NCBI GenBank assembly: GCA_947377865.1
Contig: CANCHK010000018.1
Location: 1-37,680, forward strand
Length of the DNA: 37,680 nt
DNA from: Opitutia bacterium
GTDB lineage: Bacteria > Verrucomicrobiota > Verrucomicrobiia > Opitutales > UBA953
Direction of reading: 5' to 3'
Shown here: positions 14,390-36,764 of the stretch, piece by piece
Numbering within the stretch: position 1 is the stretch's first letter
Layout: the number at the start of each line of letters is the position of its first letter
Notes under the pieces: model-generated
What the model was told of the DNA's origin: nothing
What the model saw: only the letters and a program-made list of their open reading frames with translations
The model's database searches: none
Made by a program: the position numbers and the translations under genes

Positions 14390-16858
14390 ATGCGCCTGTC
14401 TCCTTTCCGATCGTTAGCCGTACTTGCGCTGTCCGCACTCTCTGCTTCTGCCGCGCCGCAGGAATGGTCCGGTATCTACCCCGAGCTCGCCTATTTCAAT
14501 AACGAAGGCGAATGCGGCACTGGCGCCGTTGTCCCTTGGGCCGACCGCCTCTGGGTGATCACCTACGGTCCGCACAAACCGTATGGCTCGAGCGACAAGC
14601 TCTACGAGATCACGCCTGACCTGCAACAGATTGTCCGGCCTGAAAGCGTCGGAGGCACGCCGGCCAACCGCATGATCCACAAGGAGTCGAACCAGCTGAT
14701 CATCGGCCCTTACTTCATCGGCGCCGATCGAGAGGTGCGCGTCATTCCTCCGAAGCTCATGCCGGGACGCCTCACCGGCAACGCCCGCCACCTGACCGAT
14801 CCGGCGAACAAGGTCTACTTCGCGACGATGGAAGACGGACTCTACGAGGTCGACGTCCATACACTCGCCGTGAAGGGACTCATTAAGGAGATCATGAACA
14901 AGCCGAAGCCTGGCCAGACGGCGGAAGTCAGCCCGGCCACAATCACCTCCACTTTATCCGGCTATCACGGGAAGGGACTCTATTCCGGCCAAGGCCTGGT
15001 CATCCTTGCCAACAACGGTGAACGCAGCCCCCAGGCGCTGGTCGACCCGACGATCGTCAGCGGAGGCCTCGGCTCGTTCAACGGCGAAGGCAATTGGACG
15101 CTCGTGCGCCGCAACCAGTTCACCGAGGTCACCGGCCCAGGCGGCCTCACCGGCAACTCCGATCCGGCGGCGGACCCGCTCTGGACCATCGGCTGGGACT
15201 TCCGCTCGCTGATTCTCATGGTGATGGAAGACGGCAAGTGGACGAGCTACCGCCTGCCCAAGGGCAGCCACTCGTACGACGGCGCGCACGGGTGGAATAC
15301 CGAGTGGCCCCGCATCCGCGACATCGGCGAAGAAGGTTCGCGCCTAATGACCATGCACGGCCTCTTCTGGAAATTCCCCGCCGGCTTCTCGTCAAGACAC
15401 TCGGCCGGCATCGCGCCCCGCTCCGCCTACCTCAAGGTCATCGGCGACTTCACACGCTGGCAGGGCCGTCTCGTCTTCGGCTGCGACGACACCGCGAATT
15501 CGGAATTCCTCAACAAGCGTCCGGCCAAAGGCTCGCTCGCTGGGCCGGGCCAGTCGCAATCGAACCTTTGGTTCACCGCACTCGACAAGCCGGACCACCT
15601 CGGGCCGTCGCTCGGCCGTGGCAGCGTCTGGGTCGACGAACCCGTCAAGGCCGGCGCACCCTCCGATCCGTTCCTCCTAGAAGGATTTGCCAAGCGCGCG
15701 CTCTTGCTCCGCCACGACGGCGCCGCGCCGACGACCTTCAGCCTGGAGATCGACGAACACGGCGACGGCCAGTGGAAGACGTGGGCAGATGTGGCGCTGA
15801 AGGCCGACGAAGCCACGCGCTGGATCGAGATCCCCGCGACCGTCGCCGGCGCCTGGATCCGCACGAAGGCGGACCGCGATATCACCAAGGCTTCGGCCAC
15901 TTTCCAATATGCCGCGGTCGACGACCGCGTCGCCGAGCGAGGCAGCGTCTTCAAGGGACTCAGCAAGGCTGGAGATACGACCTCACAAGGCGCCTTCCTG
16001 CTCACGCGCGGCGCCAACCTGCGCACGCTCTCGGTGCTCAGCGCAAACGTCACGCCGGAAAAGACCACGCTCGGCGATGCCTATGAACTCTCCGCCGACT
16101 TCAAGCTTACCAAGCAGAAGGACCCCGCGGTCGCGGCCTACGTCGAAAAGAATACCCTGATCCCGACCGGCATCGTCACCGCCGACGCCGCCTCCGTGAT
16201 CTTCGAAGAAAGCGGTGTGCGCTGGCGCCTGCCGCGCTCGGCTTCGCCGGCGCAGGATGGCCTCCTCGCCCGCAGCGCCCTACGCAAGGCTCGCGAAGTC
16301 TGCACCGAACGCGATATGCTCCAGGCGCACGGCACTTTCTACGAACTGCCAGCGTTGAACGCGAAGGGCGCGATCCGCATGCGCCCGATCGCGACGAGCG
16401 ACGCCGCTATCCATGATTATTGCTCCTACCGCGGACTGCTCGTGCTCAGCGGCATCGATCCGGCCGCGAAGGACGACCAGCATATCATCCGCTCCGACGA
16501 CGGTAAGGCCGCCGTGTGGGTCGGCGCCGCCGACGATCTCTGGCAGCTCGGCAAGCCACGCGGTCATGGCGGCCCCTGGCTGAACAGCGACGTCGCCGCC
16601 GGCAAGCCTTCGGACCCGTATCTCATGACCGGCTACGACCAGAAAACGTTGGTGCTTGAGAACAACGGTGAGGCCGAGACGACAATCACCGTCGAGCTCG
16701 ACGTTGCCGGCGACGGTCGCTTCGCCGCGTACCGAAGCTTCAAGCTGGCTCCGGGAGCGAAGGAATCCCACGTGTTCCCGGCTTGGATCAACGCCTACTG
16801 GGTCCGCGCGGTCTCGTCGGCCAAGACCAAGGCCTCCGCCCAGCTGACCTACGAATAA
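14390..16858 (+). CDS. Large secreted protein with an internal duplication, function unknown
   Basis: This 822-residue protein has a signal peptide (MRLSPFRSLAVLALSALSASAA) and no membrane helix in the mature part. I do not recognise a named family. The N-terminal half (WADRLWVITYGPH, KLYEITPDL, VYFATMEDGLYEVDV) reads like beta-propeller blades. Two homologous modules are visible, about residues 310-507 and 640-821. Each contains a MxxHGxFxxxPA element, then W/YRGRLVxSGxD-like text, then a conserved 93-residue end: AGAPSDPFLLEGF at about 422 against AGKPSDPYLMTGY at about 738, and ITKASATFQYA against TKASAQLTYE. Proteins of this style are frequent in Verrucomicrobia and Planctomycetes and often sit among carbohydrate-use genes. 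A structural or sugar-binding role is possible but not shown. Confidence 0.75.
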   Translation: MRLSPFRSLAVLALSALSASAAPQEWSGIYPELAYFNNEGECGTGAVVPWADRLWVITYGPHKPYGSSDKLYEITPDLQQIVRPESVGGTPANRMIHKESNQLIIGPYFIGADREVRVIPPKLMPGRLTGNARHLTDPANKVYFATMEDGLYEVDVHTLAVKGLIKEIMNKPKPGQTAEVSPATITSTLSGYHGKGLYSGQGLVILANNGERSPQALVDPTIVSGGLGSFNGEGNWTLVRRNQFTEVTGPGGLTGNSDPAADPLWTIGWDFRSLILMVMEDGKWTSYRLPKGSHSYDGAHGWNTEWPRIRDIGEEGSRLMTMHGLFWKFPAGFSSRHSAGIAPRSAYLKVIGDFTRWQGRLVFGCDDTANSEFLNKRPAKGSLAGPGQSQSNLWFTALDKPDHLGPSLGRGSVWVDEPVKAGAPSDPFLLEGFAKRALLLRHDGAAPTTFSLEIDEHGDGQWKTWADVALKADEATRWIEIPATVAGAWIRTKADRDITKASATFQYAAVDDRVAERGSVFKGLSKAGDTTSQGAFLLTRGANLRTLSVLSANVTPEKTTLGDAYELSADFKLTKQKDPAVAAYVEKNTLIPTGIVTADAASVIFEESGVRWRLPRSASPAQDGLLARSALRKAREVCTERDMLQAHGTFYELPALNAKGAIRMRPIATSDAAIHDYCSYRGLLVLSGIDPAAKDDQHIIRSDDGKAAVWVGAADDLWQLGKPRGHGGPWLNSDVAAGKPSDPYLMTGYDQKTLVLENNGEAETTITVELDVAGDGRFAAYRSFKLAPGAKESHVFPAWINAYWVRAVSSAKTKASAQLTYE

Positions 16859-17748: not shown

Positions 17749-18825
17749 ATGAACGAGCCCTTCGACACCATCGAGGAAGCCCTTGCGGACATCGCCGCCG
17801 GGAAACTCGTGATTGTGACCGACGACGAGAACCGCGAAAACGAGGGCGACCTCGTGATGGCGGCCTCGAAGGCCACGCCGGAGACGGTCAACATGATGAT
17901 CCGCCACGCGCGCGGCCTCATCTGCGTGCCGACCGTCGAGCATCAGCTCCGCCGCCTGGGCATTTCCCAGATGGTGCCCGAGAACCGTGAGTCGCAGCGC
18001 ACCGCCTTCGCGGTGGCCGTCGACGCCGCCGAAGGGATCTCCACCGGGATCTCCGCCTACGACCGGGCGAAGACCATCTCGATCCTCGCCGACCCGCAGG
18101 CCAAGCCCGAGGCGCTCGTGCAGCCCGGCCACATCTTCCCGCTCCTCGCCCGACCCGGCGGCGTGCTCCAGCGCGCCGGCCACACCGAAGCCGCGGTCGA
18201 CCTCGCGTCGCTCGCCGGCCTCCATCCGAGCGGCGTCATCTGCGAAATCCTGAACGAAGACGGCTCGATGGCGCGCCTGCCCGAACTCGTCGAACTCAAG
18301 AAAAAGTTTGGCCTGCACATGATCTCCATCGCGCAGCTCATCGAGTTCCGCCATCGCCGCGAACGCCTCGTCGAGCTCGTCGCCGAAAGCCCCTTCCAGT
18401 CGGCATGGGGCGAATTCGAGCTGAGCGTCTACCGCTCGCTCCCTGACGGCCGCCAGCACCTCGTCTTCACCCTCGGCCAGCCGGACGAATCACCTACGCT
18501 CGTGCGCGTACAGCGCGAGAACATGCTCGGCGACCTCTTCCGCGGCAGCGCGTTCGGCGCCGGCACCTCGCTCGCCGCCAGCTTCGAAGCCGTGGCCAAG
18601 GCCGGCCGCGGAGTGATTGTCCATGTCACCCAGCCTTTCGGCGGCGTGCAGGCCGACCAATCCGGTATCCGCCTCGGCGCCATGGACGCGCGCGACTACG
18701 GTATCGGCGCCCAGATCCTTTCGCATCTCGGACTCCGTCGCATCCGGCTCATCACGAACAACCCGCGTAAGGTCGTGGGTCTAGGCGGGTACGGGTTGGA
18801 AATCGTCGAGCAGGTTCCGTTCTAA
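17749..18825 (+). CDS. ribB: 3,4-dihydroxy-2-butanone-4-phosphate synthase with a degenerate GTP cyclohydrolase II domain (RibBX-like)
   Basis: The 358-residue protein has two domains. Residues 1-200 are an apparently intact RibB, with DDENRENEGDLVMAA at 25-39, the RAGHTEAAVDLASLAG stretch at 142-157 and GVICEILNEDGSMAR. This makes the four-carbon unit of riboflavin from ribulose 5-phosphate. Residues 205-358 align with GTP cyclohydrolase II (RibA) in its ends: VRVQRENMLGDLF and later DYGIGAQILSHLG, ITNNPRKVVGLGGYGL. The zinc site is lost: the SEC and RCDC cysteines are replaced by REN and SAFG, the catalytic QEGRGIGL is VTQPFGG, and about 20-25 residues after it are missing. RibA activity is therefore unlikely; another ribA must exist elsewhere. 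Heads the rib-nusB cluster. Confidence 0.9.
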   Translation: MNEPFDTIEEALADIAAGKLVIVTDDENRENEGDLVMAASKATPETVNMMIRHARGLICVPTVEHQLRRLGISQMVPENRESQRTAFAVAVDAAEGISTGISAYDRAKTISILADPQAKPEALVQPGHIFPLLARPGGVLQRAGHTEAAVDLASLAGLHPSGVICEILNEDGSMARLPELVELKKKFGLHMISIAQLIEFRHRRERLVELVAESPFQSAWGEFELSVYRSLPDGRQHLVFTLGQPDESPTLVRVQRENMLGDLFRGSAFGAGTSLAASFEAVAKAGRGVIVHVTQPFGGVQADQSGIRLGAMDARDYGIGAQILSHLGLRRIRLITNNPRKVVGLGGYGLEIVEQVPF

Positions 18826-18893: not shown

Positions 18894-19430
18894 ATGAGCC
18901 TAGACAAGCCCACCCCTGACGCCATCGATGGTGCCGAACTCCGCTTCGCCATCGTGTCGGCAGGCTACAATGCGGAACTCGTTCAGGCCCTGAAGAACAA
19001 CGCTATCAAAGGCCTCCGCTCGGCCGGCGTGCCTGCTGGCTCCATCGCCGAACTGGCCGTCCCGGGCTCCGGCGAAATTCCCTTCGCGGCCTATATGTCG
19101 GCCATGACCGGCGACTACGACTGCATCATCGCCCTCGGTGTCGTCATCGCCGGCGACACCCCGCACCACGAGATTATCGCCCACTCGACCGCCCAGGCCC
19201 TGCAGGATGCCGCCATCCGCTCCGAAGTCCCGGTGATCAACGGTATCGTCGTCACCAACAATCGCGAGCAGGCCGTCGCCCGCTGCCAAGGCACGCTCGA
19301 TCGCGGCACCGAGTTCGCACACGCCGCCCTCACCATGGCCCGTCACCGCATCACGCTTGGCGAGCGACTCGACCAGGTCGAAGAAGAGGAACGCAAACGC
19401 GGCGGCCAGGAACCTTTCGCCCAGAACTGA
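18894..19430 (+). CDS. ribH: 6,7-dimethyl-8-ribityllumazine synthase
   Basis: The 178-residue protein condenses the RibB product with the pyrimidine precursor to give lumazine, the penultimate riboflavin step; family members form 5-mers or 60-mer capsids. Seen are the N-terminal strand FAIVSAGYNAELV, the substrate-binding VPGSGEIPFAA, the phosphate-binding and catalytic stretch ALGVVIAGDTPHHEII with the catalytic His, and NGIVVTNNREQAVAR. The ATG at 18894 replaces an upstream start at 18846 because family members begin shortly before the FAIV strand and because of the promoter-like sequence between. It carries a charged C-terminal tail (QVEEEERKRGGQEPFAQN) longer than usual. The next gene starts 3 nt after its stop. 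Confidence 0.95.
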   Translation: MSLDKPTPDAIDGAELRFAIVSAGYNAELVQALKNNAIKGLRSAGVPAGSIAELAVPGSGEIPFAAYMSAMTGDYDCIIALGVVIAGDTPHHEIIAHSTAQALQDAAIRSEVPVINGIVVTNNREQAVARCQGTLDRGTEFAHAALTMARHRITLGERLDQVEEEERKRGGQEPFAQN

Positions 19431-19433
19431 CCG

Positions 19434-20216
19434 ATGGAAAACGACTCGCCCATTTCCGCCTCCGCGCGCGCCAAAATCCGCATCCGGATTAAAGGCATCG
19501 ACTACCGCATGGCGGACCAGACTGCCGCGGATATCATCGCCAGCATCTCCGGCACCGGCGCCCGCATCTCTGGCCCCTTCCCGCTCCCTTCGCAGATTGA
19601 GGAGCCGCGTACGGCACTCCGTGAGGAGATTCGTAGCCATCGCCGCATGGTCGAGATCATCGGCTCCAGCCCTAAGACCGTGGACGCATTCCGTCGCCAT
19701 AACATCCCCGCCGGCATCGAGATCGCTATCGTCGCCCCCGACGAGCCTATCGTGCCGGATCCCGCCGCGCCGCCCGCCAAGCGTAACCGCCGCCATGACA
19801 GCCGCGTGGCCGCCATGCAGTTCCTCTGTTCATGGGAAGTCCAGCGCCACGCCGACATGGTCACGGGACTCTTTGATTTCTTTTCCGAACGCCCGCAACC
19901 GCGCGAATATTACGCCTTCGCCGAGGAACTCATTCAGGGCGTCATCCGCGACCTTGCGCTGATTGATGAGGTCATCGGAAAATACGCCAAGAACTGGGCC
20001 TTTGGCCGCATCGCACGCGTCGACCTCGCCATCCTGCGCATCGCCATTTTCGAGCTGATGCGACGCACCGACATCCCGCCGGTCGTCAGCATCAACGAGG
20101 CCGTCGACATCGCCAAGGAATTCTCGACCGAGGAATCCAAGCGCTTCGTGAACGGAATCCTCGACAGCTATAAGGAAGAACTGGGTCGCGACCCGCGTAA
20201 AGCCGAAGGCGGCTGA
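19434..20216 (+). CDS. nusB: S10 (NusE)-NusB fusion protein
   Basis: One uninterrupted 260-residue frame joins two antitermination factors. Residues 13-101 are an S10/NusE fold: KIRIRIKGIDYRMADQTA, GARISGPFPLP and SPKTVDAFRRHNIPAGIEI match ribosomal S10 nearly column by column. Residues 102-120 are a Pro-rich, then basic linker (PIVPDPAAPPAKRNRR). Residues 121-250 are a full NusB: RVAAMQFLCSWEV, AEELIQGV, LAILRIAIFELM, PPVVSINEAVDIAKEFS and FVNGILD. In the S10 part, the stretch corresponding to the 22-residue ribosome-binding loop of E. coli S10 (46-67) is only about 12 residues (55-66), and the usual SPHVNKDARDQ sequence is gone. NusE and NusB form a heterodimer on boxA RNA, so this is a tethered pair. 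The start at 19434 is 3 nt after ribH and 5' to the whole S10 domain. ftsY begins 4 nt downstream. Confidence 0.93.
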   Translation: MENDSPISASARAKIRIRIKGIDYRMADQTAADIIASISGTGARISGPFPLPSQIEEPRTALREEIRSHRRMVEIIGSSPKTVDAFRRHNIPAGIEIAIVAPDEPIVPDPAAPPAKRNRRHDSRVAAMQFLCSWEVQRHADMVTGLFDFFSERPQPREYYAFAEELIQGVIRDLALIDEVIGKYAKNWAFGRIARVDLAILRIAIFELMRRTDIPPVVSINEAVDIAKEFSTEESKRFVNGILDSYKEELGRDPRKAEGG

Positions 20217-20220
20217 ACCG

Positions 20221-21123
20221 ATGGCGGGATTCTTCGAGCGTCTGAAGTCCGGCCTAAGCCGCACGGCCGAGGCCGTTGCTAATCTGCTAGCACGGCCGAT
20301 GGACGCCGAGTCGGCCGAGCAGCTACGTGAGCGCCTGATCGCCGCCGACTTCGGTCCCGCCACCGCCGACGAAGTTGTCGAAGCCGCACGCTCGGCTTGG
20401 AAGTCCGAAGCCGCGCTGCGCAAGAGCTCGCCTGCCGAAGCCGCTGCCGAGAGCATCGTGCGTGCGCTCGGCGGAGAGACCGTTGCCGCGCCCGCTTTAT
20501 CCAAGCCGCATGTGATTATGCTCCTCGGCGTCAACGGCGCCGGTAAGACGACCACCGCCGCGAAGCTCGCCTGGCGCTGGCGGCAAGAGGGCAAGACCTG
20601 CCTGCTCGGCGCGTGCGACACGTTCCGCGCCGCGGCTGGCGAACAACTTTCCGCCTGGGCTGACCGGCTGGGCGTCGAAGTCGTCGGCGGAGCCGCCGGT
20701 GCCGATCCCGCCGCCGTGGCCTTCGATGCCGCCAAGGCGGGTGTCGCGCGTGGCGCCGACATCGTCATCCTCGACACCGCGGGCCGCCTCCACACCAAGA
20801 CGCACCTACTCGAAGAACTTCGCAAAGTGGTCCGCGTGACGGCCAAGGCCCACGCCGGTGCACCGCACGAGAAGTGGCTCGTCATCGACGGTTCGCTCGG
20901 CGCGAACTCGATCGAACAGGCCCGCATCTTCCATGAGGCCGTCGGGCTCACGGGCCTGATCGTGACCAAGCTCGACGGTACCGCCCGCGGCGGCGCGCTC
21001 GTCGCGGTGGTCCGCGAGCTCGGCGTCCCAGTCCGCTTCATCGGCGTCGGCGAACAGCCAGCCGACCTCCAACCCTTCGATGCGCGGGCCTACGCCCGCT
21101 CGATCGTCGGCCTGGCCGAGTGA
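20221..21123 (+). CDS. ftsY: Signal recognition particle receptor FtsY
   Basis: A 300-residue SRP GTPase without the long acidic A domain, as in many compact FtsY proteins. The N domain (1-90) leads to the G domain with G1 GVNGAGKTTT at about 103-112, DTFRAAAGEQL, DTAGRLHTKTHLLEEL, TKLDGTARGG and the GVGEQPADLQPF closing motif. The GQN-type segment reads GSLGANSIEQA and not the usual TGQN, a modest deviation. FtsY docks ribosome-SRP complexes to SecYEG at the inner membrane. The N-terminal MAGFFERLKSGL helix is the usual lipid-binding amphipathic helix, supporting the ATG at 20221. It is 4 nt after the S10-NusB gene, so co-transcribed. Confidence 0.96.
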   Translation: MAGFFERLKSGLSRTAEAVANLLARPMDAESAEQLRERLIAADFGPATADEVVEAARSAWKSEAALRKSSPAEAAAESIVRALGGETVAAPALSKPHVIMLLGVNGAGKTTTAAKLAWRWRQEGKTCLLGACDTFRAAAGEQLSAWADRLGVEVVGGAAGADPAAVAFDAAKAGVARGADIVILDTAGRLHTKTHLLEELRKVVRVTAKAHAGAPHEKWLVIDGSLGANSIEQARIFHEAVGLTGLIVTKLDGTARGGALVAVVRELGVPVRFIGVGEQPADLQPFDARAYARSIVGLAE

Positions 21124-21165: not shown

Positions 21166-22263
21166 ATGTCGGCCGAGACCGTCACCGTCCAATTAGGCCA
21201 GCGCTCCTACCCCGTCCGCATCGGGGCCGGGATGTGCCAGGAAGCCTTGGCCGCGGCGGAACGTCGCGTGGCCTCCGGCCAGAAGTGCGTGGCAATCACC
21301 TCTCCCGGCGTCGCAGCGGCCCAGTCCGGTTTCGCTGCGCAGCTCGCCCGTCTCATGCCAGTGCTCGCGACCGCTTCGGACGGCGAGACCGCCAAGTCGG
21401 CCGCCGAACTCGCCCGCGTCTGGGATTTCCTCGCCGCTAACGGCGTGGCCCGCGATGGCGCGGTCTTCGCGCTCGGCGGCGGCGTCGTCGGCGACCTCGC
21501 CGGCTTCGCGGCCGCCTCCTACCAGCGCGGCGTCGATTTCTACCAAATCCCGACGACCTTGCTCGCGATGGTCGACAGCTCCGTCGGCGGCAAGACCGGC
21601 ATCAACCTCGCGGCGGGCAAGAACCTCGTCGGCAACTTCCACCAGCCCACGGCCGTCTTCGCCGACACCGACCTGCTAGCGACCCTGCCTCCGCGTGAGT
21701 TCGCGGCGGGCATGGCTGAGGTCATCAAGCATGGCATTATCGCCGACGCTGATCTCTTCGGCCTACTCGAACAGAATTCGCCGCTGAACTGGAATCATGC
21801 TTTACTGCCGCGCGTCATCCGCCGCTGTGTCGAGATCAAGGCCACCGTCGTCGCCGGCGACGAGCGCGAGACCAGCGCCCAGGGCGGCCGCGCCCTCCTC
21901 AATCTCGGCCACACCTTTGGGCACGCCATCGAGGCCACCGCCGGATACGGCACCTATCTGCACGGCGAAGCCGTCGCGATCGGCCTCGTGATGGCCGCCC
22001 GCCTTTCCGCCGAGCTGAAGCATTGCACCGCCGCCCAGGCCGAACAGGTCGAGGCCGCACTAAAGTCGCACGCGTTGCCCACCGCGCTAAGTGCGCCGCT
22101 CCCCCTCGAACCCATGCTCGCCGCGATGCGTCGCGACAAAAAGGTCCGCGGGGGCAAGCTGCGCTTCGTCCTTCAGGATGGCATCGGCGCGGCGAGCACC
22201 TCGGATTCCGTACCCGAAGAGGCCGCGATTCGTGCCCTGCTCGCCGGCGGCGCCGCCCGCTAA
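21166..22263 (+). CDS. aroB: 3-dehydroquinate synthase
   Basis: The 365-residue cytoplasmic enzyme converts DAHP to 3-dehydroquinate using NAD and a divalent metal, the second shikimate step. The NAD/substrate region FALGGGVVGDLAGFAAASYQ and the signature IPTTLLAMVDSSVGGKTGIN are intact. AEVIKHGIIAD and NLGHTFGHAIE supply metal ligands, followed by LHGEAVAIGL. MRRDKKVRGGKLRFVL near the end is also typical. ATG at 21166 yields an N-terminus (MSAETVTVQLGQRSYPVRIG) of family length. It lies 42 nt after ftsY; a TTGCCA box in that gap may give it its own promoter. Confidence 0.97.
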   Translation: MSAETVTVQLGQRSYPVRIGAGMCQEALAAAERRVASGQKCVAITSPGVAAAQSGFAAQLARLMPVLATASDGETAKSAAELARVWDFLAANGVARDGAVFALGGGVVGDLAGFAAASYQRGVDFYQIPTTLLAMVDSSVGGKTGINLAAGKNLVGNFHQPTAVFADTDLLATLPPREFAAGMAEVIKHGIIADADLFGLLEQNSPLNWNHALLPRVIRRCVEIKATVVAGDERETSAQGGRALLNLGHTFGHAIEATAGYGTYLHGEAVAIGLVMAARLSAELKHCTAAQAEQVEAALKSHALPTALSAPLPLEPMLAAMRRDKKVRGGKLRFVLQDGIGAASTSDSVPEEAAIRALLAGGAAR

Positions 22264-32211: not shown

Positions 32212-34047
32212 ATGCGGATCTCCCGCACCACCGTCATCCTGCTAGTGGCTAACCTGATCGCCTTCGGTCTCGTCTGGAAGGCCACATCCGGTCACCAGCC
32301 GACCGCGTTCAACCAGGCGCAACTCTTTCCCTCCCTGCCTGCGAAGCTAATCCTAAGCGAAGGACCCGAACGTATTGTACTGGAAAAACGCAATTCCGTC
32401 TGGCGACTCGTCGAACCTTTCGACTGGACCGCGAACATATGGTCCGTGCAGCGGATACTCGACGAGCTCCGCTTCATCAGCGCCGAAGGTGGCTTCGATG
32501 CGGCCGAAGCCAAGGCCAACGGATCCGGCCTAAAGGATTACGGCCTAGAGCCGCCACGGTGGACTCTGAAGGTTACGTCGGAAGCAGGAGCGGTGGTTGA
32601 AGCGAAGATTGGCGTCCAGCCCTCCACCCGCCGCCACTTCCTCCTCACCGACGACGGCAAGCGTATCATCCCCCTGCCCGAAGCCATGGCAGCGGCCTTG
32701 GCCGCGAAACCGGAAAGTTACCGCCTCGACCGAATCTTTGACATTGCTGATTTCGAAGCCCGGGCAGTCGCCGTACGCCATCGCACCAAGGATGGCGAAG
32801 AAGTCACCGCTTTGACCTCCGAAGCCCGTCCGCGCGTCGGACGACGAGTGCAACTACCTGAATGGCGCTTCGAGACTCCATACGACGCGCTCGCCGATGC
32901 GGACGCAACCGCGCGCGCAGTCGCCGACCTCACGAACCTGCGAGCGAGTAAATTCGTCGTCCTCGCCGAAGATGTCACCGGCCTGACCGCACCGGTGCTT
33001 CGCCTATCGCTCGAAGGCAATTCGCGGAGACAGGTCCTCTTGGTCGGGAAAGCTGCCCCCGGACAACCCACGCTACTCTGCGCGAAACTCGAAGAAAATC
33101 CCTCCATCTTCCTCATTGAAGCCCGCCTCCTCGGTGATTGGTTCGCGGCGCGTGCAACCCTGGCAGCCTCTCGTCCGTCGGACTTCGATTCAGCGCTCGT
33201 GACAGGCTTCACAGTCGCCGCCGGCGGACGCACGATCACGCTGCACCGCCTAGAAGGAGCCGCCGCCGAGGCCCGCTGGGAAATTCCCGTGGCCCCCGGA
33301 TCCACCGCCACCAAACGGCGTGAAGCCGACCCGAAAATTGTCGGCCGCTTCCTTGAAGCCGTCTCGCAGCTCCGCGCGATCCGTCACAAATCCGCCAGCG
33401 GCGGCAGCGTGCCGGCCGTAATGGCGCTCTCCAATCCAGGGACGACGTCAGTCCAAACCCTCGAGCTCGAATTTGGGACTGACCGAATGCTACTCACCTT
33501 TACGGACGATCCAGAAAAAGGAGTAGGCACGCGCGTCGTCCACGCTAAGGGCTCACCGCTGGCGGCCGTCTGCGATATCTCGCTGCTCGACGGCGGCCAC
33601 CAAAACGTCGAGCCGCAGGCCTGGCGCAAACGCGTTGTGGCGGAACTCTCCCAAGGCGCCCGCGTGAGCGGCTTACGCCTCACCACCCGCGGCGACGGCA
33701 AGGTCCTCGGCGAAGCGCGCCTCGGACCCGACGGCAACTGGGCAGGCTCGGGCAGGCTCGACCCTGCGAACTCACGCCGCCTCGCCGCCGGCCTAGCCGA
33801 AGTGCGTGCCACGGAATTCCCAGCGCGCGACGTTGGATCAGGCGGCTGGAAATTTGAGATTCGTGTGACGGATCAGGCCGCCACGGGAGGGGCCGCCGCT
33901 AGCGAGACGTTCCGCACCTACCTCTGCTCTGCCCCTTTCAATACGCGTACGGTGTTGATGAAGGATGAGGCGGACGACGACGACTTCATCCTTGAGGCTG
34001 GCCTCGCCGAAATCCTGATCCCGTTGCTGGCCGAGACCGGCAGATGA
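32212..34047 (+). CDS. DUF4340 domain protein
   Basis: The 611-residue protein starts with a membrane anchor (TTVILLVANLIAFGLVW, about 5-22) and has a long extracytoplasmic part with the DUF4340 pattern: IVLEKRNSVWRLVEPFDWTA, LDELRFISAEGGF, GLKDYGLEPPRWTLKV and FLLTDDGKRIIPLPEAM. A second related stretch follows (WRFETPYDALADADATARAV, LRASKFVV). DUF4340 proteins regularly follow GldG-like genes. The ATG at 32212 is 7 nt after the GldG-like stop; a GTG two codons upstream is possible. The stop overlaps the AsmA-like start (ATGA). Function is unknown; it may pair with the GldG-like protein to form the outer part of the transporter. Confidence 0.85.
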   Translation: MRISRTTVILLVANLIAFGLVWKATSGHQPTAFNQAQLFPSLPAKLILSEGPERIVLEKRNSVWRLVEPFDWTANIWSVQRILDELRFISAEGGFDAAEAKANGSGLKDYGLEPPRWTLKVTSEAGAVVEAKIGVQPSTRRHFLLTDDGKRIIPLPEAMAAALAAKPESYRLDRIFDIADFEARAVAVRHRTKDGEEVTALTSEARPRVGRRVQLPEWRFETPYDALADADATARAVADLTNLRASKFVVLAEDVTGLTAPVLRLSLEGNSRRQVLLVGKAAPGQPTLLCAKLEENPSIFLIEARLLGDWFAARATLAASRPSDFDSALVTGFTVAAGGRTITLHRLEGAAAEARWEIPVAPGSTATKRREADPKIVGRFLEAVSQLRAIRHKSASGGSVPAVMALSNPGTTSVQTLELEFGTDRMLLTFTDDPEKGVGTRVVHAKGSPLAAVCDISLLDGGHQNVEPQAWRKRVVAELSQGARVSGLRLTTRGDGKVLGEARLGPDGNWAGSGRLDPANSRRLAAGLAEVRATEFPARDVGSGGWKFEIRVTDQAATGGAAASETFRTYLCSAPFNTRTVLMKDEADDDDFILEAGLAEILIPLLAETGR

Positions 34048-36764
34048 AACCAAAGCTGGCCAGTTCCCCGTTCCGCAAGTTCCTGCGCGGGCTGACGAAC
34101 ACCTGCCTACTCTTGTTGCTTCCCGTCCAGCTGACGCTCTGCTGGATTGCCAACCTCGAGCGGCCGACGAAGTTGCCTGACTTCCTGACGGAGCGGCTCG
34201 CCTCGCAACTAGCCGACCATGGGCTTCGCATGAGGGCCCGGCATTTCTGGATGTTACCCGATCTCACGCTGGCCGCGGACGACCTAGAGCTCGGCGTCGA
34301 CGGCATTACCGATGAGGTCTTCACCGCCTCCCGGATTGAACTGGCACTCAACCCCGCCCTGCTCATCGCCGGCCAGATTGAACCGACGCAGCTAAGGATA
34401 TCCGGCGCCCGTCTCTGGTGCCCGGCCTCGGTCGCCCGTGGCGGAGTCAGACGTCTGCTGCTCTCCGAACTTACCGTCGACGTCACCAAGGAAGGGCGCT
34501 GGATCAACCTTCGCTCCGTCCAGGCCCGCGGCGGCAAGATTACTTGCCACCTCTCCGGAGAGGTGCCGGCCGGCCTTCTGCACGGCGAAAAAGAGCCGGC
34601 CGAAAAGCCCCCCCTTTCCCGCCGGCTGTCTGAAGCATTCGCCTCTATCGAGACGGCGGTCGATGTGGCCGAGCGTTCCGGCGGAGCCTCCGTTTCCCTC
34701 CGCTGCCAAGGCAGCAGCGACGGCAGCGCCGAACTCGCCGTGCTGGCCGTGCTGGGCAATGATTGGTCTGATGGCGGCCTGGGACTCATCCAGGCCCGCG
34801 GCCTCAACCTTCGCGGCAGCCTCAAGGTCACACGCGACGGACACCTCAATGACTGGCACCTCGACGGCGGCGCCCAACAGATCGCCTGGGACGCCATCTC
34901 AGCCGAGCGGCTCGACATCCATGCACACGGGCAAGGCCAACGTGAAGACATCGTCGCCGAACTCACGCTCGCACAGGCTAGGATTTACGGGGTAGCGCTG
35001 AGTAGGGCGACGCTTCAGGCCCAGCCCACCGCAGACAGAGGCAGTCGGATAGCCTTCCGTGTCCTTTCCTCCACATCGACGGCAGTCGGTTCAGCCATCA
35101 TTGGCCGGAACGGTGAAATTCTGGCCAGACTCGACCATGCGAATATTTCCGGCGAAGAGATCGCCGCCCAGCCCCAGGCCGGCATCATACTACAGTCAGC
35201 AGGCGTCGACCTGCGCGGCGAAATCCTTCTGTGTGATGTCGTGGCGACATTCTCCACTAAAGGGGGAGTGAGCAAGACCACCGGCGAGATCGCGGTGTCG
35301 GGTTTCCGTGGCCTCGGGATTTCCGCGGAGGCCATCTCGCCGGACATGAGGCTGCCCTTGCGTACGCGTTTCGATTTCGACGCCTCCCGTGACGGAGCCC
35401 CCCTGCGACTGCGCGACCTCCGCCTCGCCTCGGTCACGGGCTCGGCCGACTGTGAACTAAAGGCGGGCGGCGCTTTCCTGCTCCATCTCAACGGCGTGAT
35501 TGCGCCGCCGAGCCTCGACCGCGTACTCGGCGAGTGGTGGGTTAACCTATGGAAACTTTTCCACTTACGGGAGAACCCCTACGCGTTCATCGACGTGGAA
35601 AGCCATTGGGGTGCGATGACCAGCGTGACCAAAGGCCGAATCGTGTTGAACCGCTTCGACTTCATGGGCGCGCCTTTTCGCCATGTCGAAGTCTCCGTCG
35701 ACGCCGACCCAAAGCATAGTGCCATCGGGCTGTATCATCTCAGCGGCGGCGATTCCGAGGCTGATGGCAGCGTCGATGGCTCCGCCAACTGGGATTGGAC
35801 CAAGCCCGCCCGGCTAGCTGGACCGGTCGTGCACGTCGAAGGCAATCTCCAGCCCTGGATCGCAGCCCGATGCGCAGGCAAGGAGCTGGGCGAAGCGCTT
35901 CGCGGGCTCGTGCTGCCAGCCGATCGTCGCTTCAACCTGCTGATTTCGCCGACGGAAAAATCCCCCGACGTGAAGGCCTCGATCGAATGCGCAGGTACCT
36001 TCTCCGCATGGGGTATCTCCGGGAAATCGCTGCAGGCCAATACCGAGACAACGGACGGCGGCCTGCGCGTCACCGCCAAGCTCGGGCTGGCTGACGGCGA
36101 AGCCTCGCTCGTCCTTAACGGCGATCCATTACATCAGACCAAACTGTCCCTCGGTCTCAAAGGCTGCGACCCCACGCAGATCGGCCAACTGCTGAGCGGA
36201 GTGGGCACGCCCAAGTCTAAGGATGACCCTAAGCCTGCCGCCAAGACGGCCCCCTCCGGCAAGCTCGACCTGGATTTCTCTGGGCGCCTCGACCTTGAGC
36301 ACCCCCGGCAGATTAAGGGCGTTGGCCATTATTCACTCATAGACCCGGAACTAAAGAAGGTCCGGGTCCTGGGTGGCATCTCCCATGTCCTGGAAGCAGT
36401 CGGCATAGGTGCCACGACCTACGAGCTTAACCAAGCCAGGGGTACCTTTGCCTGCCTGGATGGCCGGGCGTACTTCCCGGACCTGGCCATCACCGGCCCC
36501 CAGTCCCGCTTAGACCTTGCCGGGGAGATCGACCTTCAAGCCTCCACCTTAGACTTCGAAGGGGACTTCTCCCTACCCCGTAAAGCCGGCTTCAACCCAT
36601 TGGATCTTCTCAACCTCAATCGTGCCCTCATCGGCTTAACAAAAATTAAGCTGAAAGGGCCTATTTCGAAGCCGGAAACCAGCGCAATTCCGACCCTTAA
36701 AGATATCATTAAACCCCAGAGGGACAGTAAGTTAGGTAAGATTCCAGACGGAATTCAGGAATGA
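34044..36764 (+). CDS. AsmA-like membrane-anchored protein
   Basis: A 906-residue protein with an N-terminal membrane helix (LTNTCLLLLLPVQLTLCWIAN, about 17-37) and a long beta-rich periplasmic region with no other helix. The start (LTERLASQLADHGLRMRARHF, ITDEVFTASRIELALNPALL) and the end (SRLDLAGEIDLQASTLDFEG, NLNRALIGLTKIKLKGPISKP) have the look of AsmA/TamB-like proteins, which form long hydrophobic-groove bridges for lipids between membranes. ATGA overlap with the DUF4340 gene puts it in the Gld-type operon, an unusual setting worth noting. The last 60 bp are visibly less GC-rich than the rest. Family membership is by pattern only and no exact subfamily is claimed. Confidence 0.75.
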   Translation: MKPKLASSPFRKFLRGLTNTCLLLLLPVQLTLCWIANLERPTKLPDFLTERLASQLADHGLRMRARHFWMLPDLTLAADDLELGVDGITDEVFTASRIELALNPALLIAGQIEPTQLRISGARLWCPASVARGGVRRLLLSELTVDVTKEGRWINLRSVQARGGKITCHLSGEVPAGLLHGEKEPAEKPPLSRRLSEAFASIETAVDVAERSGGASVSLRCQGSSDGSAELAVLAVLGNDWSDGGLGLIQARGLNLRGSLKVTRDGHLNDWHLDGGAQQIAWDAISAERLDIHAHGQGQREDIVAELTLAQARIYGVALSRATLQAQPTADRGSRIAFRVLSSTSTAVGSAIIGRNGEILARLDHANISGEEIAAQPQAGIILQSAGVDLRGEILLCDVVATFSTKGGVSKTTGEIAVSGFRGLGISAEAISPDMRLPLRTRFDFDASRDGAPLRLRDLRLASVTGSADCELKAGGAFLLHLNGVIAPPSLDRVLGEWWVNLWKLFHLRENPYAFIDVESHWGAMTSVTKGRIVLNRFDFMGAPFRHVEVSVDADPKHSAIGLYHLSGGDSEADGSVDGSANWDWTKPARLAGPVVHVEGNLQPWIAARCAGKELGEALRGLVLPADRRFNLLISPTEKSPDVKASIECAGTFSAWGISGKSLQANTETTDGGLRVTAKLGLADGEASLVLNGDPLHQTKLSLGLKGCDPTQIGQLLSGVGTPKSKDDPKPAAKTAPSGKLDLDFSGRLDLEHPRQIKGVGHYSLIDPELKKVRVLGGISHVLEAVGIGATTYELNQARGTFACLDGRAYFPDLAITGPQSRLDLAGEIDLQASTLDFEGDFSLPRKAGFNPLDLLNLNRALIGLTKIKLKGPISKPETSAIPTLKDIIKPQRDSKLGKIPDGIQE

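Follow-up and report, generated by a model that had tools for sequence, protein, structure and literature searches.

We analysed a 37,680-nucleotide stretch of DNA from an Opitutia bacterium (the window; contig CANCHK010000018.1), in which one open reading frame (ORF) of 260 amino acids (aa), at 19434-20216 on the + strand, encodes an S10/NusE domain followed by NusB. The features of this fusion gene and of its neighbours are as follows.

17749-18825, + strand: ribBA (3,4-dihydroxy-2-butanone 4-phosphate synthase / GTP cyclohydrolase II; Pfam), syntenic neighbour
18895-19430, + strand: ribH (lumazine synthase; Pfam), adjoining the fusion upstream
19434-20216, + strand: S10(NusE)-NusB fusion gene, 260 aa, ATG start
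19479-19730, + strand: S10/NusE domain (PF00338, residues 16-99); model within ~1.4 Å of full S10 structures over 88 residues
19593-19631, + strand: shortened ribosome-binding loop QIEEPRTALREEI, 13 residues against 23 in canonical S10
19732-19778, + strand: Pro/Ala-rich inter-domain linker (~residues 100-115), low model confidence
19779-20183, + strand: NusB domain (TIGR01951) with basic N-terminus KRNRRHD and Cys at the E. coli Tyr18 position
20221-21123, + strand: ftsY-like signal recognition particle receptor GTPase (Pfam), adjoining the fusion downstream
21166-22263, + strand: aroB (3-dehydroquinate synthase; Pfam), syntenic neighbour

Family profiles recognised both halves of the protein. 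The Ribosomal_S10 Pfam match covers residues 16-99 and the NusB match residues 122-246; the S10 half passes PF00338 (44.4 bits, cut-off 21.2), making it a member of the uS10 superfamily, and scores below the rpsJ equivalog cut-offs (TIGR01049, 55.4 against 72.75; NF001861, 62.7 against 85), and the NusB half passes NCBIfam TIGR01951 (130.6 bits, cut-off 88.35). The gene occupies the usual place of nusB, in the order ribBA-ribH-fusion-ftsY-aroB, where relatives carry a plain nusB between ribH and ftsY.

Residues 54-66 of the ORF, QIEEPRTALREEI, are flanked by PLPS and RSHRR, and translation of this interval agrees with an earlier interpretation made from the letters alone (the sequence-only reading), which had counted 13 residues here against 23 in E. 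coli S10. The interval measures 23 residues in 37/37 canonical S10s from the order Opitutales and the freshwater genus that carries the fusion, as against 13 (n = 12), 14 (n = 4) or 7-8 (n = 1, genome G019) in 17 fused sequences; the window's fusion thus lacks the 23-residue loop with conserved tip by which a canonical S10 is recognised. In the alignment, the gap of the fused copies corresponds to E. coli S10 residues 50-59, the loop tip, in which V51, N52, R53, S54, H56, V57 and K59 vary little or not at all among canonical S10s. The ends of the hairpin are still recognisable, with V/I at 46, E47, E66 and I/L at 67 kept in nearly all of the 17 sequences. Because its residues align with both ends of the canonical loop, the remnant is the base of the hairpin, contrary to the earlier statement that what remains does not resemble the rRNA-contacting loop.

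The sequence-only reading had also taken the ribosome-contacting element to be the only part lost, which proved too strict. Most fused copies keep 1/13 of the loop positions that are invariant in canonical S10 (12/13 changed) and 23/38 of the invariant non-loop positions (15/38 changed, among them K30, R31, T69, P79, E86 and K89; Fisher p = 0.001, positions treated as independent). The loss of invariants is concentrated in the loop, yet not confined there. The net charge of the S10 domain, considered as a possible sign that rRNA binding had been lost, was no different in the core outside the loop, and this marker was dropped. Position 86, which we take to be the site of the nusE71 allele (A86D; a literature search on the allele found nothing), is Glu in canonical Opitutales S10s and Ala in E. 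coli; the fused domains carry Ala or Val there and are in this respect closer to E. coli than the canonical Opitutales copies are.

The ratio of non-synonymous to synonymous substitution rates (dN/dS), estimated in four clades, was 0.04-0.18 for the S10 core, 0.04-0.16 for the loop remnant and 0.03-0.07 for NusB; the linker (0.09-0.57) was the least constrained stretch in 3/4 clades. These values indicate that the fused S10 domain, including the loop remnant, is under purifying selection, and they speak against a functionless domain that has been decaying since an accidental fusion. Loss of the domain at least twice, its absence from most small genomes and the very divergent copy of G019, with an even shorter loop, would suit such decay; given the constraint in all four clades and the retention of two NusB-contacting residues, R16 and D19, in 18/18 fused copies, we find this explanation quite improbable.

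The fusion was present in 38 of the 55 genomes of a single freshwater Verrucomicrobiota genus, always with the same architecture; named records of the genus are freshwater Opitutae metagenome-assembled genomes such as UBA953 and UBA957, and also Opitutae bacterium BS10. Although most of the sequences are metagenome-assembled, an assembly or binning artefact is refuted by the recurrence of the in-frame fusion at the identical locus across many projects and 38 genomes, and we give it practically no weight; the fusion also lies on long contigs (e.g. BGOM01000024.1, 184 kb). It was not found in the sampled order (273 genomes) or in the family's four other genera, which have one S10 each, nor among the strong matches listed for the phylum (388 genomes; other bacterial phyla were not surveyed). 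None was found in phages or plasmids, and the literature searched held no natural NusB-NusE fusion.

Fusion and canonical full-loop rpsJ occur together in 31/38 genomes, among them every one of the 16 with a completeness of 90% or more; completeness is 61-85% in the seven with the fusion and without rpsJ. The window's own genome (76% complete) lacks both ribosomal L3 and rpsJ; because L3 is absent along with rpsJ, the S10 operon there is simply unassembled. The absence of rpsJ from this genome had raised the idea that the fusion replaces S10, which we rejected, since L3 is missing too and near-complete relatives carry both genes. The constant presence of canonical rpsJ in near-complete genomes bears equally on the idea that the fused domain still enters ribosomes, giving specialised, NusB-bearing 30S subunits. 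In favour of this idea, the domain retains the S10 fold and many residues of the core; against it, no fused copy has the invariant tip V51-K59 of the loop, and we judge it very improbable. Three genomes (G005, G020 and G035; 84-91% complete) have a canonical S10 and no NusB of any kind, through loss or an assembly gap. Elsewhere in the window, ORFs of 822 and 906 aa (14390-16858 and 34044-36764, + strand) had no Pfam match at 1e-5.

The fused S10 domains form a single clade (support 100/99), placed among the S10s of the genus and of its relative g23 in a tree built on 76 columns. Approximately unbiased (AU) tests did not reject either alternative placement of the fused clade, outside the S10s of the genus or outside those of all Opitutales, and dating from this tree was rejected because 76 columns are too few. 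Of the rpsJ duplication proposed by the sequence-only reading, derivation from S10 stands, which answers the objection that the domain might not derive from S10 at all, and the tree favours the lineage's own rpsJ as source; since the alternative placements were not rejected, that descent is likely, not proven.

The gain itself was traced on a tree built from the proteins of the syntenic block (RibBA, RibH, the NusB half, FtsY and AroB). Here the fused G019 branches first within the genus, and the unfused members fall in two separate nested places; AU tests reject a single clade of the unfused (p = 0.0004) as well as a single clade of the fused (p = 0.0005). The simplest reading of this topology is one gain of the fusion on the genus stem, followed by at least two losses of the S10 domain, which include a small-genome lineage (1.3-1.5 Mb) and G057 (2.3 Mb). 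The plain-NusB members L112, L113, L114, L116, L117, L149-L153 and L155, mostly small genomes of 1.3-1.5 Mb, have a short N-terminal tail before KRNRRHD and seem to have lost the S10 domain secondarily. The deepest-branching fusion, L111 (G019), has a very divergent S10 half (branch length 3.35) and a loop of 7-8 residues. Intermediate fusions with a full loop, which the sequence-only reading had suggested looking for, were sought among the sampled relatives and none was found, every fused copy being short-looped; nor did these relatives include a free, unfused short-loop S10. Loop loss can only be placed on the genus stem, before, with or after fusion. Because no full-loop fusion or free short-loop S10 survives, the order of the two events is unreadable, and the earlier dating (duplication, fusion, then loop loss) does not hold.

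AlphaFold2 models of the window's fusion (mean predicted local distance difference test score, pLDDT, 85; predicted template modelling score, pTM, 0.84) and of a second, 70% identical fusion (mean pLDDT 84, pTM 0.83) were closely similar in confidence. The S10 half of the model superposes on full S10 structures with a root-mean-square deviation of 1.3-1.5 Å over ~88 residues (VIA-align Z ~14-15), consistent with the earlier claim that the flanking fold core is well kept, and the NusB half matches NusB of the NusB-S10-delta-loop complex at 1.9 Å. So high a pTM for two domains joined by a linker of low confidence suggests that they are fixed relative to each other.

In the published NusB:NusE complex, NusE H15, R16, D19 and V26 contact NusB Y18, L22, E75 and E81 (PMC8341153). 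The fused copies have the NusB-contact residues of helix alpha1 that characterise NusE: R16 and D19 as above, an aromatic residue (Y/H/F) at position 15, and a varying position 26, invariantly Val in 37 canonical copies and V/A/I/T in the fused ones. On the NusB side, the acidic residue at position 81 is kept as Asp, and Tyr18 has become Cys or Val in 16/24 fused copies, in 4/6 fused groups; unfused NusB has Tyr18 in 6/6 sequences of the genus, 8/8 of the family and 26/27 of the order (one Phe), and Cys or Val occurs at this position only in fusion-bearing lineages. Such drift would be expected if the partner of the NusB half were the S10 tethered to it, in place of ribosomal S10. We treat this apparent interface drift in cis as a pattern and not as a test, as sequences within a clade are not independent.

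Taken as a whole, the fusion is a variant of the known NusB:NusE complex; the observation made from the letters is confirmed, and its interpretation largely right with the corrections given above. Both partners are those of the canonical heterodimer, and NusE R16, D19 and the acidic NusB E81 position are kept; the fusion differs in being covalent, at a fixed 1:1 ratio and with a dedicated S10 copy, and in the drift of NusB Tyr18 and S10 V26. Its fused domain shares the fold of ribosomal uS10 (rpsJ) and, with the loop excluded, is ~51% identical to the S10 of the genus itself, but falls below the rpsJ equivalog cut-offs, lacks the loop tip and lies outside the S10 operon. The closest counterpart is engineered: in the E. 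coli NusB:S10-delta-loop complex (NusE-delta; PDB 3D3B, 3IMQ; Luo et al. 2008) two chains are used and the whole loop is replaced by one Ser, and S10-delta-loop is reported to be active in antitermination. The fusion is natural, is one chain, and has lost a 10-residue tip with the hairpin base kept; it is apparently a natural version of this one-purpose complex. The NusG paralogue RfaH, likewise a specialised copy of a general transcription factor, offers an analogy only, being of another family and mechanism.

We consider that the fusion is probably a covalently linked, one-purpose NusB:NusE module, kept out of ribosomes. It joins exactly the two proteins that pair as the NusB:NusE heterodimer, and does so where nusB natively lies, and relief of NusE from ribosomal duty, as the sequence-only reading had it, is the best reading because an S10 duplicate has been fused and has lost its loop tip with its core kept, and rpsJ is still present. 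In E. coli, a complex of NusB with NusE lacking the ribosome-binding loop binds RNA polymerase beta in competition with the C-terminal domain of NusG (NusG-CTD), which it also binds (PMC4642336, PMC4650657); S10-delta-loop reportedly retains its antitermination activity (PMC10578931, citing Luo 2008); and S10 bound to NusB is blocked from the ribosome (PMC10931766). These properties make a dedicated NusB-NusE unit the best explanation.

On the genus stem, a copy of rpsJ would have been placed in frame upstream of nusB and its ribosome-binding loop tip (E. coli residues 50-59) lost. The S10 domain keeps the S10 fold and would dock on its own NusB through the alpha1 face (R16, D19), and docking as in 3D3B would keep it out of the 30S head; loss of the loop tip would remove an anchor to 16S rRNA and so presumably help to exclude the domain from ribosomes, for which the separate canonical rpsJ would supply S10. 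By analogy with E. coli, the fixed 1:1 unit may bind boxA on nascent rRNA and contact NusG or RNA polymerase for antitermination, independently of the level of free S10. NusA was present in 9/9 genomes checked.

Several points weigh against this proposal. Docking in cis rests on the pTM of the models, and the Tyr18 change, shared within clades, has few independent origins. The S10 domain is not essential, since it has been lost at least twice and is strongly divergent in G019, the deepest branch. No 16S gene beside which boxA could be read was found in nine genomes; this absence means nothing, because the search also missed 5/14 control genomes. Invariants have changed (K30, R31, E86, L87, K89) on the face that in E. 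coli meets RNA polymerase and NusG (alpha1, alpha2, beta1, beta4), and because of these changes the fusion's contact with either may differ from that of E. coli.

The same changes could suit an S10 domain acting only as a built-in chaperone or stabiliser of NusB, docked in cis without reach to NusG or RNA polymerase, with canonical S10 doing the NusE work: several of the 15/38 changed non-loop invariants lie on helices of that face, and the domain is dispensable in two lineages. Cis docking would, however, block canonical S10 from NusB, so that the NusE work would need another route, and both the strong constraint over the whole domain and the binding behaviour of the E. coli loop-less complex count against this explanation, which we hold to be unlikely.

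S10 is the textbook moonlighting ribosomal protein. If the fusion is indeed a dedicated NusB:NusE module, evolution has here split the two jobs of S10 between two genes, with a cut that matches the one made by structural biologists, and the natural loss of the loop tip is independent support for assigning the loop to the ribosome rather than to antitermination. More tentatively, and at somewhat less than even odds in our estimation, a tethered, ribosome-incompetent NusE may have uncoupled rRNA antitermination from the free S10 pool and removed any feedback that ribosome assembly exerts on rRNA transcription via S10, the interface drifting once tethering had eased the demand on binding. Fused and unfused lineages within one genus would let the relevance of S10 sharing to growth control be probed.
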